Positions 2,987-33,085 of a stretch of DNA of 33,690 bases are shown piece after piece (the first letter of the stretch is position 1; every line of letters starts with the position of its first letter). The stretch covers positions 1 to 33,690 of IMG/VR virus record IMGVR_UViG_3300035670_000790; one strand, given 5' to 3'. The notes under the pieces are model-generated. The model was not told where the DNA came from. It ran no database searches and saw nothing but the letters and a program-made list of their open reading frames with translations. Made by a program: the position numbers and the translations under genes. Source of the DNA: a virus.

Positions 2987-4977
2987 TACTGATCTTCCCG
3001 TGTGTTAATAGACCCAGTCACATAAGACGGCGTGCCGAATGTAGACTTGGCGCATAGTGTAAGCCATTCGCCTGGTTGCAGTGTAGTTTCTTCAGACCCA
3101 CCATTAAAATGGTGATCCAGCTCACCAGTATCTCCCAAGTGTCCAGACCATATAACCTGATTATTGTTTGACCATGTAACTGTAGTGGCCGATGTGTCCC
3201 ATGTTGTACAGGATGTTGTGGAGTAATCCGCAAAGCTAGGATTGCCTGCAAGTGTGCCATTCTTGACCAGATAAAGAATGACAGGGCTACTGTGTTTTAT
3301 TGCGCCTGATACAGATAGCAGATTTACAACAGCTTGATTGGCAATGCCGCCGTAATATCGTTTGTTCATCACGGTAAACAGTGCGCGATATGTTGCCGCA
3401 TCAACAGCGGTTGACTGTGCAAAGTAGCTGAACCTGTTTCCATGCAACTTCTTCTCGCCTTCGATAAACCCTGCAAATGATGCACTACTAACAGTCAAGT
3501 TAGTAGTTGACCCCGCAGAATAAGCCGACATAGTAAACGGAAACGATGGATTGCGAAACGATGTTGCCGTCAATGTATTAGGCAGAGCTAACGTGTGGCA
3601 TGTGACAAATACAGCATTGTTTCCAGCAGCCGACACCTCAACCTGAAACACTATCGCACCATAGCCTAAATACTGAATACCTATCTGGTACACGTTACCT
3701 TTCGTTGGGTCAATGGTAACACCGCTTGACCCAGTGCCGTCCATTGGATCGCCATTCCAGTCAGCTTGCGCGATGAACTGTTCAGTAACAGCTGCACCTG
3801 CGCGAGTCTGTGCAAACGACCCGACAACAGTAGTACCGCTAATGGAATAAACACCACTCGCAGCACCTACAGAATCGCGAACAAACACAACAGTAGCACC
3901 AGTTGCATAGCACTTCCATCCTGCAAAAGTACCCTGTGACAATTCCCATACCGTACGCTGTATGTTGGCACTGTTAGTCACAGCGATAGTGTATGCAGTG
4001 CCGTTCAATGTTACTGTGACATTCTCTGTCGTACTTGATGCGGTAGATATGGTCAGCGTCCTGACTTCCCTTGCACCACGCTTGTTATAGATAATCCCGA
4101 AATCAGCACCCTTGTAGCCAAAATATACCCCATCTTCAGAATGACCAAAGCCAGCCACTTGGTAGCTATCTGCAACGCCAGTTGTATATTTAGCTGTGAA
4201 CCTACCAACAACACCCTGACCTGGTCTGTACCTTAGCCTCTTGCGTGACTGGATAGCAGCATAACTGTAGATTGTCGTGCCTGTTGAACAGGTGAAGCTG
4301 GAATCACTGGCACTAGCTGACCCAGAGCCAGATTGCGTAGCTTCAACCTGCCCTTCATTCACTCCATAAACTGCATCTGTCTGGAATATGGGGTTAAGAT
4401 TTTCTGTGTGGATTGATCCGAAAGGAAGGCGAGGCGAGTGAAGCGCAACCTCTAAATGACCGTGTTCGTCTACCGGAACATTAGCCCACGATCCAGAATC
4501 AGTTTGCCCCATCAGCACAGAACGAGTGACAGCAGCATCAGCATCAGACTGGACAGTAGATGATAGTGTAGATGTCAAGGCAGGCTGAAATCCAACTAGA
4601 GTTTGCAATCTGAAATAGGTTTGTGGAGTGCCACCGTTAACATATCGAACGCGGAACCATTTACGGGTTATCGTGTAGCGGTGAACCTCGTTAACTCCAG
4701 CAGTAACAGTAGACGATAGCGAACTGTCCCAATTCTCCCCGTCTGGCGAGAACTCTGCATACAAAGTGCCGGATTGGTCAGTCTTTAACGCAATGACCAC
4801 AGACGCATAACTTGATACATTGACAGCCTCTCCAGTGTAAGTGCCAGCAGCACCTAGTATCTCACTGGTAGTGTTTTGATCAACCTCGACACCAATAGCC
4901 GCAGCCATGATGCCCTGTGCAATCATCTGTGTATGTTCTACATTGTGGATGTATAGATCGTTTACACCACTAGCCAC
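2986..4977 (-). CDS. Large putative virion surface or receptor-binding protein
   Basis: 663 residues, rich in Ser, Thr, Gly, Ala and Val with few charged runs, typical of beta-structured phage appendage proteins. A short low-complexity Ser/Gly linker (SGSGSASASDSS) near residue 220 separates an N-terminal segment, probably a virion-attachment part, from a long C-terminal part with repeated short beta-like strands. I do not recognise a tailspike enzyme motif. It lies downstream of the tail fibre among small structural genes, so a second fibre, spike or decoration is the best guess. Start ATG 4977 overlaps the previous stop by 8 bases. Confidence 0.6.
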   Translation of the reverse strand: MASGVNDLYIHNVEHTQMIAQGIMAAAIGVEVDQNTTSEILGAAGTYTGEAVNVSSYASVVIALKTDQSGTLYAEFSPDGENWDSSLSSTVTAGVNEVHRYTITRKWFRVRYVNGGTPQTYFRLQTLVGFQPALTSTLSSTVQSDADAAVTRSVLMGQTDSGSWANVPVDEHGHLEVALHSPRLPFGSIHTENLNPIFQTDAVYGVNEGQVEATQSGSGSASASDSSFTCSTGTTIYSYAAIQSRKRLRYRPGQGVVGRFTAKYTTGVADSYQVAGFGHSEDGVYFGYKGADFGIIYNKRGAREVRTLTISTASSTTENVTVTLNGTAYTIAVTNSANIQRTVWELSQGTFAGWKCYATGATVVFVRDSVGAASGVYSISGTTVVGSFAQTRAGAAVTEQFIAQADWNGDPMDGTGSSGVTIDPTKGNVYQIGIQYLGYGAIVFQVEVSAAGNNAVFVTCHTLALPNTLTATSFRNPSFPFTMSAYSAGSTTNLTVSSASFAGFIEGEKKLHGNRFSYFAQSTAVDAATYRALFTVMNKRYYGGIANQAVVNLLSVSGAIKHSSPVILYLVKNGTLAGNPSFADYSTTSCTTWDTSATTVTWSNNNQVIWSGHLGDTGELDHHFNGGSEETTLQPGEWLTLCAKSTFGTPSYVTGSINTREDQ

Positions 4978-25708: not shown

Positions 25709-25773
25709 AAATGTCTTATATACTTGAACTGTGTGCTTGTTAATATGGACACATCAACCACGGAGATGCAGAC
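25709..25773 (+). promoter_or_regulatory. Duplicated promoter/leader block, copy 1
   Basis: A 65-base block ending at the ATG of the next gene, repeated at 29718-29782 with exactly the same spacing. The left part shares AAATGTCTNATNTACTNGA; the right 29 bases before the start codon are almost identical, from TATGGACACATCAACC through CGGAGATGCAGA, including the GGAG ribosome-binding site. TAATAT at 25741 could be a -10 box. It faces away from the late promoters, making 25660-25773 a divergent control region. Confidence 0.6.
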
Positions 25774-25944
25774 ATGAGCAAGTACCACGTTACAAAAGAA
25801 GGGTTAAGGGTTGGCGCTGGCGGTTATCCGATATGCGGAACAAGAAACAAGGACAGATATTTTGTTGTGACGCTGAAAAAATCAGATTTTGAAGCGTTAC
25901 CGCCTGAGCAACAATGCAGTAAGTGCGCGGTAAGAATTAAATGA
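25774..25944 (+). CDS. Small hypothetical protein, first early gene
   Basis: 56 residues, MSKYHVTKEGLRVGAGGYPI through CSKCAVRIK. C47-x2-C50 and an earlier Cys could make a small metal site (first CGTR near residue 21). It starts right after the duplicated leader with its GGAG site, and ends at an ATGA overlap with the next gene. Probably an early regulator or accessory protein; function unknown. Confidence 0.65.
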   Translation: MSKYHVTKEGLRVGAGGYPICGTRNKDRYFVVTLKKSDFEALPPEQQCSKCAVRIK

Positions 25945-26081
25945 AACCAAAATCTGAACTCATGGCCAGACTTCGCAAGGAGCGAGCTGGCAAGGGGCTG
26001 GTAGAGCTGCGGCTGTGGCTTACGCCAGAACAGAAAGAGCGCGTCTTGAAGTGCGTGTCGCGGCTGAAGCGTGACGCATAA
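25941..26081 (+). CDS. Small ribbon-helix-helix-like protein
   Basis: 46 residues: KSELMARLRKERAGKGLVEL, then RLWLTPEQKERVLKCVSRLK. The Lys/Arg helix, 'GLVELRLWLTPEQ' strand and following helix resemble short phage proteins thought to bind DNA through a ribbon-helix-helix fold. Starts at ATGA. Its stop TAA forms part of the left box of the first attC-like site in array 2, so it is the last phage gene, or an unflanked cassette ORF, before that array. Confidence 0.6.
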   Translation: MKPKSELMARLRKERAGKGLVELRLWLTPEQKERVLKCVSRLKRDA

Positions 26082-27023: not shown

Positions 27024-27083
27024 ACTGGGTTAGACATCACATGACGGGAAGTTTTACGTCATATCAGCGGAATGTCTAATACC
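27024..27083 (+). repeat. Type B palindrome, copy 2, right end of array 2
   Basis: After the cassette end GCCTAAC comes ACTGG, then GTTAGACAT (27029-27037), core GACGGGAAGTTTTACGTC (27043-27060) whose ends TGACG/CGTCA pair, and ATGTCTAATACC closing the outer arm. GTTAGACAT and ATGTCTAAT are inverted with one mismatch, so it looks like a minimal cassette without an ORF. It has no T tract, arguing against a simple terminator. Confidence 0.8.
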
Positions 27084-27136
27084 ACAATTGCTATGGATTG
27101 CTAGAATGAGGCTGTAAATCAAACGAGGGTACGCAA

Positions 27137-28864: not shown

Positions 28865-28995
28865 GCTTTGGCGTACCGGTGAACTGTATGCGTGTTTTAT
28901 ACTTTGATGTGCGGCTAGGGTAGCTCCCGAAAAGCCTGCCCTGTCTGACGGGCTTGCCGCATATCTTATCAGACCACCTAGACAGAGGTATTACA

Positions 28996-29717: not shown

Positions 29718-29782
29718 AAATGTCTAATTTACTGGATTTGCAGGATTGGTAGTATGGACACATCAACCACGGAGATGCAGAT
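29718..29782 (+). promoter_or_regulatory. Duplicated promoter/leader block, copy 2
   Basis: Same 65-base layout as 25709-25773: AAATGTCTAATTTACTGGAT, then at the same distance TATGGACACATCAACC and CGGAGATGCAGA up to the ATG at 29783. The identical spacing with a diverged middle suggests that the ends are constrained by function, probably a promoter plus leader with ribosome-binding site. Confidence 0.6.
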
Positions 29783-29911
29783 ATGAACACACTCAGCAAG
29801 AAACAAGAGATTCAGGTTCGCCGCCAAGCGCAGAAACACTTAAGAGGTATCCCAGCTCGCCAAAATGCTGCAGCCATTGTCAGAGCAGCAGCAGAGATAG
29901 GAAAGCAGTAA
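29783..29911 (+). CDS. Small basic protein, 42 residues
   Basis: MNTLSKKQEIQVRRQAQKHL with RGIPARQNAAAIVRAAAEIG and a KQ end; one basic helix-rich domain. It starts directly after the duplicated leader and its TAA overlaps the next ATG (TAATG). Likely an early nucleic-acid-associated peptide; function unknown. Confidence 0.6.
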   Translation: MNTLSKKQEIQVRRQAQKHLRGIPARQNAAAIVRAAAEIGKQ

Positions 29912-31664: not shown

Positions 31665-31695
31665 TAGAGTTGTGGTGAGTGAAAGGAAGAATTAA

Positions 31696-31731
31696 ATGAC
31701 TACTGAACTTGTGCGACTTGTTAGGCTATGA
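31696..31731 (+). CDS. 11-residue leader peptide across the array 3 border
   Basis: AAAGGAAG lies seven bases upstream of ATG 31696, a better ribosome-binding site than most genes here. The frame reads MTTELVRLVRL and stops at TGA 31729-31731, overlapping ATG 31728 of the first cassette ORF (ATGA). It would feed ribosomes into a cassette that lacks its own site. The attI1 site of class 1 integrons is known to hold a similar short ORF that boosts cassette translation. Confidence 0.5.
   Translation: MTTELVRLVRL
31720..31726 (+). repeat. Single GTTAGGC box at the left border of array 3
   Basis: A perfect GTTRRRY box one base before the first cassette ORF, without the palindromic arms of the attC-like sites. 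It is complementary to the right end of the same cassette, GCCTAAC at 31914-31920. It therefore looks like a simple, attI-like or secondary insertion point. Confidence 0.6.
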
Positions 31732-31919
31732 AAAAGCATCATCTAGTCAAAATAGAATGGCGAGATCCTTGTTCAGATTGGCCGTGGTTTTTTATCATTG
31801 GATTTGATGGTGAATGGGTGCATTTGCGCGGCGCGGATTACCCGGATGGAACTGGGAAACACGACGGATCATCATTCTGGGTTCACAGAAATGAGATCAA
31901 GTCAATGATTGATGCCTAA
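31728..31919 (+). CDS. Cassette ORF, 63 residues
   Basis: MKKHHLVKIEWRDPCSDWPW and on, rich in Trp and His, ending NEIKSMIDA. The LVKIEWRDP and EWVHLRGAD strands suggest a small beta barrel (SH3-like), only a guess. It begins in the border box and has no separate ribosome-binding site; the overlapping leader peptide can supply translation. The TAA stop is in the next site's left box. Confidence 0.6.
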   Translation: MKKHHLVKIEWRDPCSDWPWFFIIGFDGEWVHLRGADYPDGTGKHDGSSFWVHRNEIKSMIDA

Positions 31920-31967
31920 CCCACAGCTAACCGGCGCGAAGCGTCCGAGTTGAGCGAATTTTTAGGC
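31914..31967 (+). repeat. attC-like site 5, first of array 3
   Basis: Outer boxes GCCTAAC (31914-31920) and TTTAGGC (31961-31967; first G of GTTAGGC changed to T). Arms GCTAACCGG (31926-31934) and CCGAGTTGAGC (31945-31955) pair except A31948 and G31952. The arms are identical to those of 26076-26134 while the loop differs (CGCGAAGCGT), showing the same site family. Confidence 0.88.
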
Positions 31968-31994
31968 GGCAACTAACTACAGAGGATAAACAGA

Positions 31995-32312
31995 ATGAAA
32001 CGCGATAAATATAAGTTACAAAAAGACTTTGAGGGCCGGTTTGCCGGTAGATTCGGAAATAATATCGTTTCCAAAAAAACACCATCTGGTGAATATGAAA
32101 ACGGCGATGTATTGGCTATGTATTGCGGATATGTTGCCGGGATAGACTCTGTGAAAATAAAAGTCCCGGCAACTTCAGTAAGATGGCGCGATGCAAATAC
32201 CGCAAAGCTAGAGGATATTTTAAATGCCGAAATAGAAATGAGAAATAAATTTATAGACGCCTGTCGAGAGGCTGGTATAGAGCCGGTATTCGGTGGAGAT
32301 ATAGATGATTGA
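31995..32312 (+). CDS. Cassette ORF, 105 residues
   Basis: MKRDKYKLQKDFEGRFAGRF, then EIEMRNKFIDACREAGIEPV and an acidic end. AGAGGATAAACAG precedes ATG 31995. Basic first half, helical second half; no family recognised. Its cassette is the only one whose two ends do not match: TTTAGGC on the left, GTATAAC on the right (32314-32320). Confidence 0.6.
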   Translation: MKRDKYKLQKDFEGRFAGRFGNNIVSKKTPSGEYENGDVLAMYCGYVAGIDSVKIKVPATSVRWRDANTAKLEDILNAEIEMRNKFIDACREAGIEPVFGGDIDD

Positions 32313-32313
32313 C

Positions 32314-32400
32314 GTATAACCCAGAGCTGAGGGGCGAGAGATGAGCGAAGCGAAGAACGAGTCCAGTGGCGAAGCCACGACCTCTAGCGAGTTGTTATGT
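32314..32400 (+). repeat. attC-like site 6 (87 bp, extended loop)
   Basis: Outer boxes GTATAAC (32314-32320) and GTTATGT (32394-32400). Arms GCTGAGG (32326-32332) and CCTCTAGC (32381-32388) pair except T32385. The long loop has an inner GTGGC...GCCAC hairpin and contains the ATG (32341) of the next ORF. Confidence 0.85.
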
Positions 32401-32601
32401 TGCAGAGAGTGCGGAAACACTTTTATAGAATGTTTCCCATCTTGGTGGGTTGGCTGCAAACCGTGCAATAACCATGTTAGCGGGGCGACACGCAGCGGTG
32501 CGGTTTCCAGATGGAATAAGCAACATAACCAGTTTATTCAGCGGTGCGCAGCATCCGCTGGAATTAGTTGTTATATGCCACATGGAGAAATCACATGGTA
32601 G
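32341..32601 (+). CDS. Cassette ORF with Lar-like zinc ribbon, fused through two attC-like sites
   Basis: 86 residues. The core CCRECGNTFIECFPSWWVGC, KPCNNHVSG and AVSRWNKQ has the spacing of short zinc-ribbon proteins of the Lar restriction-alleviation type (C-x2-C ... C-x2-C/N, then A-x-x-x-W-N). The first ~19 residues are read from the loop of site 6, the last ~17 from site 7 and the next cassette's beginning, because this frame has no stop in the box ACATAAC. The native product may thus be a chimera or start at an alternative codon near 32391. The cassette is only 32394-32529. Confidence 0.5.
   Translation: MSEAKNESSGEATTSSELLCCRECGNTFIECFPSWWVGCKPCNNHVSGATRSGAVSRWNKQHNQFIQRCAASAGISCYMPHGEITW
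32523..32576 (+). repeat. attC-like site 7
   Basis: Outer boxes ACATAAC (32523-32529) and GTTATAT (32570-32576). Arms ATTCAGCGG (32536-32544) and CCGCTGGAAT (32555-32564) pair with a single extra G on the right arm around loop TGCGCAGCAT. The arms differ in sequence from the GCTAACCGG family but keep the same architecture and bulge position, so structure is conserved rather than sequence. Confidence 0.87.
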
Positions 32602-32972
32602 TCACAGGCAGGGTACATGGAGCGGCAGCCAGAAAATATGCTGGTTATTGCTACAGAAAGCCTATAAAAACTAGGCTTGATATTTTTTCGATTGATCCCG
32701 CAAGGATTGATCCTTTACATGAATACCCGAGAATAATAGAAAAGCCCATGTACCCAGCGGAATGCAAAACTGTTGATCTGGCGGATTATGAAGCGTTTAT
32801 TGGCGCAATGAATGAGAAAGGTGAAAGCCAATTAACCATAACTATGCTGCCAAACGAGTACACACAAGCTGAAGTGCCGCTGGTAGTTTACGAGATGACA
32901 ATAAACGGGATACTGCCAAACAGTGGTTTTTGTATCGACGAGGCTATGAGACGCTGTTTCAGTGGCATATAA
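32595..32972 (+). CDS. Cassette ORF, 125 residues
   Basis: MVVTGRVHGAAARKYAGYCY and on, then IDPARIDPLHEYPRIIEKPM and LTITMLPNEYTQAEVPLVVY. ATG 32595 has GGAGAAA upstream; a longer frame from 32568 begins inside the attC box. Alpha/beta character, no family recognised. Its cassette has the best ends of all: GTTATATGCCAC (32570-32581) and GTGGCATATAAC (32962-32973), 12 of 12. Confidence 0.65.
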   Translation: MVVTGRVHGAAARKYAGYCYRKPIKTRLDIFSIDPARIDPLHEYPRIIEKPMYPAECKTVDLADYEAFIGAMNEKGESQLTITMLPNEYTQAEVPLVVYEMTINGILPNSGFCIDEAMRRCFSGI

Positions 32973-32973
32973 C

Positions 32974-33033
32974 ACTGGGTTAGACATCACATGACGCAAA
33001 ACATCCCGTAATATCAGCGGAATGTCTAATACC
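32974..33033 (+). repeat. Type B palindrome, copy 3 with inverted core, right end of array 3
   Basis: ACTGG, GTTAGACATCACAT and TATCAGCGGAATGTCTAATACC are the same as in copy 2, but the 18-base core is GACGCAAAACATCCCGTA (32993-33010). That matches the reverse complement of copy 1's core at 16 of 18 positions and of copy 2's at 15 of 18, and does not match either core in direct orientation. It follows the last cassette end at 32973. Confidence 0.82.
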
Positions 33034-33085
33034 ACAGCACCAAAAAGCATGGAACAATACAGACTCAATACATCGGAGAATGGTT

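Follow-up and report, generated by a model that had tools for sequence, protein, structure and literature searches.

An ORF-11-like leader at the left end of a phage cassette array: probably a deletion scar and not an attI site

Described cassette systems and the phage fragment

The integration site attI1 possesses an inverted L box, CCCTAAA, a few nucleotides upstream of its R box (PMC12901181). Its short reading frame ORF-11, whose stop codon lies at core positions 3-5, promotes ribosome reinitiation on the cassette gene, as do short ORFs within attC sites (PMC8876359). The name attG has been given to recombination sites in genomes that belong to neither the attC nor the attI class (Loot et al. 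2024, cited in PMC12444791). Cassette arrays of phages have been described as phage CALINs (clusters of attC lacking integron integrase), in which several attC-bounded cassettes lie in a single orientation and no integrase gene was found (Qi et al. 2023, PMC9892861).

The window analysed here, i.e. the whole stretch of 33,690 nucleotides of the IMG/VR record IMGVR_UViG_3300035670_000790, is a phage fragment bearing three integron-style cassette arrays, all in the early region. The plus strand harbours lambda-like early genes (replication O-like, NinG, NinB and a Sak-like annealing protein), and the opposite strand a podovirus-like head/tail block. Seven attCs were found in the window with a covariance model (CM R1) trained on 30 attCs, taken from the window and from other phages; six of the seven belonged to this training set, and the attC at 31912-31969 did not. 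Covariation in the model is well supported, the observed score being reached by none of 500 shuffles. A search of the window with Rfam gave no attC-like family. Cassettes were identified by a start box G/TTRRRY complementary to the R'' that ends the same cassette. This complementarity extends over 7-12 bp in the cassettes of arrays 1, 2 and 3, with 7 bp in cassette 1 of array 3 and 8-12 bp in the others.

No match to the integron integrase TIGR02249 or the tyrosine recombinase PF00589 was detected in the window or in the related 38-kb phage G001; the window is only a fragment, so an integrase gene could sit in the missing part. With at least two attCs, matched start and end boxes and no integrase found, the window is a phage CALIN of the kind already described. 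It is similar to the phage CALINs of PMC9892861 in the features named above, and differs from them, as far as the available part of that source describes them, in its three arrays per phage fragment, a common right-border element, and a gene, here called gene X, at left borders. The array-1 cassette gene at 799-1392 shares 53% identity with L047 1180-1788 in another phage array, and its presence in two phage arrays is evidence of cassette exchange between phages. An int-alpA RNA (Rfam RF02996, 37 bits, above the gathering score) is present at 28908-28975, upstream of the replication gene.

The leader reading frame and the cassettes of array 3

Array 3 and its leader comprise the following features:

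31682..31689, plus strand: Shine-Dalgarno sequence AAAGGAAG, with AGGA 8 nt before the leader ATG; anti-SD duplex -5.6 kcal/mol
31696..31731, plus strand: leader ORF (MTTELVRLVRL, then stop), 11 codons, running from a probable gene-X 5' remnant through an attC arm into the cassette
31720..31726, plus strand: core box G/TTAGGC, where cassette 1 begins, complementary to GCCTAAC at 31914-31920
31728..31919, plus strand: cassette-1 ORF, 63 aa, stop inside R'', without its own Shine-Dalgarno sequence
31912..31969, plus strand: attC of cassette 1, CM R1 29.7 bits
31995..32312, plus strand: cassette-2 ORF, 105 aa, with its own Shine-Dalgarno sequence
32312..32402, plus strand: attC 3b, CM R1 41.3 bits, containing at 32341 an ATG preceded by a ribosome-binding site, from which an ORF continues into cassette 3
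32521..32578, plus strand: attC 3c, CM R1 27.6 bits
32595..32972, plus strand: cassette-4 ORF, 125 aa; an 85.6% identical cassette in G001 has a normal attC behind it

The preliminary description placed the start of array 3 at the GTTAGGC box, and this is a genuine cassette start, with the same cassette ending in GCCTAAC at 31914-31920. The short ORF reported across the box is likewise present, with its ATG at 31696-31698 and its stop at 31729-31731, forming an ATGA overlap with the cassette-1 ATG at 31728. At this second ATG the Shine-Dalgarno energy is 0 kcal/mol, and no homologue of the 63-aa product was found. In the R' that follows the cassette-1 attC, the crossover base G is replaced by T (TTTAGGC, 31961-31967). 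The same replacement was observed at two attCs in total (GAATTTTTAGGC, GAGTTTTTATATG), the one in the window and the first attC of array A in L043 (minus strand), and it might freeze the array. The ORF at 32341-32601, which runs from attC 3b through R' into cassette 3, encodes a small Cys-rich protein with no Pfam match.

The ribosome-binding site of the leader had been called strong; it is an ordinary one, with -5.6 kcal/mol versus -5.8 to -8.7 kcal/mol in most cassette genes of the window, and 21% of the early-region ATGs have a Shine-Dalgarno sequence at least equal to it. A consensus scan revealed no promoter upstream of the leader. Two further candidates were rejected: an RNA hairpin or attenuator in the leader, since folding was no stronger than in shuffles (z = 0.28), and an origin of the leader as the start of a known phage gene, for which there was no significant match.

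Similar to ORF-11 of attI1 (PMC8876359), the leader is a short ORF with a Shine-Dalgarno sequence and ATG that crosses the core box, takes its stop codon from the cassette and precedes a first gene without an initiation region. The anatomical part of the resemblance proposed earlier is thus retained, and the identification with attI is not. The leader is indeed 11 residues long; the agreement with the count in the name ORF-11 looks coincidental, the stop lying beyond the core box here. Unlike ORF-11, the leader lies outside an attI, stops past the core on the cassette ATG, and differs in sequence between arrays. It also resembles the short ORFs inside attCs (PMC8876359), which likewise extend from the right arm of an attC across R' into the cassette, but it contains the right half of an attC only and apparently takes its start from gene X. 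By analogy, it is plausible that the leader works like ORF-11 through translational coupling: it ends on the cassette-1 ATG, which lacks a Shine-Dalgarno sequence, so ribosomes completing the leader could reinitiate there.

Alternatively, the leader may be incidental, a chance open frame that does not influence how the cassettes are expressed. Of 3000 dinucleotide shuffles of the upstream sequence, 4.8% contain an in-frame ATG as good as this one, and at this rate of about 5% the leader as a functional element is suggestive and statistically not compelling. Crossing ORFs are also common, being present at 18 of the 49 array R' sites. Such a chance frame would, however, have to place its ATG overlap exactly at a gene without its own ribosome-binding site, and we consider this reading unlikely. 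Of the 49 cassette starts surveyed in array-bearing phages, eight lack an initiation region of their own. A crossing ORF lies ahead of five of these eight and of thirteen of the 41 proficient ones, a tendency of crossing ORFs to accompany deficient cassettes that is not significant (p = 0.12). In phage contig L052, attC-like sites at 722-835, 1659-1765 and 2712-2825 possess an ATG leader ORF (MTD/MTK/MID..KP.V..P...) that runs through R' into the next cassette. Two of these three leaders use the same frame as here, CGA CTT GTT, and two are fused to the next cassette gene. As they cross R', reading frames translated through R' boxes are a recurrent feature of such phages.

Origin of the left border

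The features that bear on the origin of this border are the following:

31704..31719, plus strand: attC right-arm remnant TGAACTTGTGCGACTT, position matrix 9.5 bits
31674..31699, plus strand: copy of the region around the gene-X start (GTGAGTGAAAGG-AAGAATTAAATGA), aligned with 25918-25944 on the left side of array 2
25941..26081, plus strand: gene X, 46 aa, next to array 2 on its left, with its stop codon in the R''-like GACGCATAA
26074..26136, plus strand: attC 2a, directly behind gene X, CM R1 42.3 bits

The core box had been described as lone and without palindromic arms. There is no complete attC at this position, but a right-arm match (9.5 bits) directly precedes the box. The 16-nt position matrix used was trained on attC right arms of other phages only, and a score at least equal to that of the arm at 31720 occurs at 16 of about 67,000 window positions, namely at six known attCs, at 31720 and at nine positions without GTT next to them. 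The site at 31720 is the sole non-attC position of the window that combines this score with a following GTT. A complete attC upstream of 31720 was sought and rejected, as the covariance model detected nothing with filters off (best 2 bits) and the fold gave z = 0.28. The high arm score together with the negative result of the full attC model indicates that what is present at the border resembles an attC reduced to its right half. Window array 1 and the array in phage contig L035 likewise begin, on the left, with half an attC. The motif GACTT occurs near codon 10 of gene X, so part of the "arm" before 31720 could be gene sequence.

Upstream of the arm, GTGAGTGAAAGG-AAGAATTAAATGA of the leader region matches the gene-X start GTAAGTGCGCGGTAAGAATTAAATGA with 13 nt exact. 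This level of match was reached by none of 3346 window tiles with stringent scoring and by two of 3346 with lenient scoring. A longer gapped alignment of the left flanks of arrays 3 and 2 was not significant, 44 of 1096 tiles being as good. The peptides agree loosely (leader M..TELVRL versus MKxKSELM, the gene-X N-terminus in relatives).

Gene X together with attC 2a at array 2 is the complete form of an array left border. The phage G001 (IMGVR_UViG_3300020043_004908), related to the window with about 70-75% DNA identity across structural genes, has the same arrangement of gene X and, behind it, an attC where its array A begins on the left; the start of this gene X aligns with the leader, more weakly than that of array 2. 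A second gene X of G001 abuts an element at the right end of array A. The L034 array has a gene-X remnant on its left. In a protein search, gene X turned up in three IMG/VR contigs only, each bearing an attC array and previously found via attC patterns; the 50,697 phage records contained no copy. Copies were located at 25941-26081 in the window, at 3353-3493 and 4608-4877 (minus strand) in L061 (the same phage as G001), at 3001-3138 in L068 and at 3001-3108 in L069. They encode a small protein (..LVELRLWLTPEQKERVLK..KRDA), in most copies with the stop codon within R''. A promoter-like module, CACTGTATGAATTA..GTAACGCGTTAC..ACATCAACCACGGAGATGCAGACATG, was observed in or beside cassettes, near cassette starts, in L043/L061, L039 and L069, sometimes upstream of gene X; a related shorter module is present in the window at 25709-25774 and 29720-29785.

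The left borders compared were those of arrays 1, 2 and 3 of the window, of arrays A and B of G001, and of L034, L035, L036 and L037. Besides that of array 3, they are of the following types:

Window array 1: half attC
Window array 2: gene X and attC
G001 array A: gene X and attC
L034: gene-X remnant and attC
L035: half attC
L036 and L037: phage gene and attC
G001 array B: lone G/TTATGTG crossed by a 16-codon ORF (MTQHTPELLSALLCEF, then stop), no attC arm (score -9.2)

Neither the leader nor the region upstream of the arm recurs in any two of these left borders, apart from the gene-X start that arrays 2 and 3 have in common.

The left end of array 3 is therefore read here as, probably, the result of a deletion that joined the first codons of gene X to the right half of an attC, with a product that can couple translation and is not an attI. 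It would be a shortened form of the border seen at array 2 and at G001 array A, where gene X, a complete attC and the first cassette follow each other. Most of a gene-X copy, together with the attC's left half, was probably lost in this deletion, which would have placed the ribosome-binding site, ATG and first codons of gene X before the attC right arm TGAACTTGTGCGACTT and the box GTTAGGC. The 11-codon ORF so formed would end on the cassette-1 start codon, where no Shine-Dalgarno sequence is available, and ribosomes finishing the leader may restart on the cassette-1 gene by termination-reinitiation. The cassettes themselves would have been loaded by an integrase supplied by the host. The arm score, the gene-X-start match, the presence of gene X and attC elsewhere, and the partial attCs at other left ends support such a deletion scar. 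Weighing against it, the gene-X match is short, consisting of one exact 13-mer and weaker flanks.

The lone-box border of G001 array B, which has no attC arm, indicates that another route to such borders exists. An attG-type insertion is one: cassette 1 would have been inserted by an integron integrase of the host at an opportunistic G/TT early in a phage gene, and the first codons of that gene would now serve as the leader. Array B of G001 is of this type, with SD-ATG-MTQHTPELLSAL/L at its lone G/TTATGTG. Similar to attG insertions (Loot et al. 2024, cited in PMC12444791), the window border has a cassette in a phage genome at a lone G/TT box; unlike them, it has an attC arm ahead of the box, the 16 nt before 31720 matching one. 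Moreover, the rest of the interrupted gene is not seen right of the array, where a recurrent element lies instead, and an empty site, in which the context GCGACTTG would be expected in a relative, was not found among the relatives searched. For array 3 we regard an attG insertion as unlikely, and the deletion of a gene-X border as the preferred explanation.

The preliminary description had also raised an attI-like true entry point, i.e. a phage site whose conserved leader takes in new cassettes and drives their translation. The ORF-11-like anatomy (PMC8876359) would agree with it, as does the GTTRRRY R box at the first-cassette junction (31720-31726). Nevertheless, no attI-type L box is visible, TGAACTTGTGCGACTT at 31704-31719 having no YCTAA-like box at the spacing of attI1 and an attC arm lying there instead, and no integrase was found in the window or G001. 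Sequence left of 31720, expected to be conserved where first cassettes differ, is not shared with the other window arrays, with G001, or with the other array-bearing phages examined. Judged by these comparisons, the leader does not look like an attI or a dedicated entry gate for new cassettes, and we consider such a site very improbable.

A phage with exactly the array-3 locus and a different first cassette was not found, and the available comparisons are with more distant relatives. With the leader DNA as query, viral_contigs yielded nothing and phages nothing significant. Searches with the NinB protein, ORF 33080, the leader DNA and the pattern of the right-border element revealed no close relatives in viral_contigs, genome_contigs or phages. 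NinB was not detectable in G001, and NinG relatives were too distant to give the array-3 locus. The attC pattern had three matches in genome_contigs, two of which are not attC and the third a 341-bp stretch with one attC-like site, so there was no host integron or host attI to compare.

The right border of the arrays

A single element recurs at the right ends of the window arrays:

32974..33036, plus strand: element T of the right border (R''-ACTGGGTTAGACAT...), with further copies at 1394 and 27024 and a homologue in G001

All three arrays of the window end with R'' and element T, at 1394-1431 (shorter), 27024-27086 and 32974-33036, and a similar element, the one that the second gene X of G001 abuts, is present at the right end of its array A. 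Element T consists of R''-ACTNNNTAGANATNACNTGACG, mostly with a downstream CGTCA partner, and its stem loop is inverted in the third copy. The cassette at 32595-32972 has T behind it here and a normal attC in G001, hence T is not a fixed part of the cassette. More generally, the last R'' is followed by ACT at seven of eight array ends versus one of 42 internal attCs (p = 6e-7; 2e-5 with the window counted once), a statistic based on trinucleotide lists compiled by hand after the pattern had already been noticed. Five phages have a last cassette whose terminal R'' is directly followed by ACT and then by sequence that the attC model does not recognise. On the opposite strand, R''-ACT reads AGTG/TTRRRY, which in the window and G001 is part of the conserved element T, with an L-box-like TCTAA and then, in most copies, a TGACG...CGTCA stem.

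On sequence grounds, the border conserved among phages is the right one (R''-ACT) and not the left one. Element T could be a degenerate attC, a tail-first attI-like site or a phage regulatory element. That the right border is a dedicated one, at which a host integrase would dock cassettes tail-first into a phage-borne attI-like site, with gene X and the promoter module as the other flank, seems distinctly unlikely.

The search for an entry point in cassette-carrying phages is redirected by these results: the left leader is probably a deletion scar, and the right border and gene X are what recur across phages. The leader of array 3 may be a natural case of an ORF-11-like leader that arose outside an attI. 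If so, it would show how easily coupling can evolve before cassettes without ribosome-binding sites.
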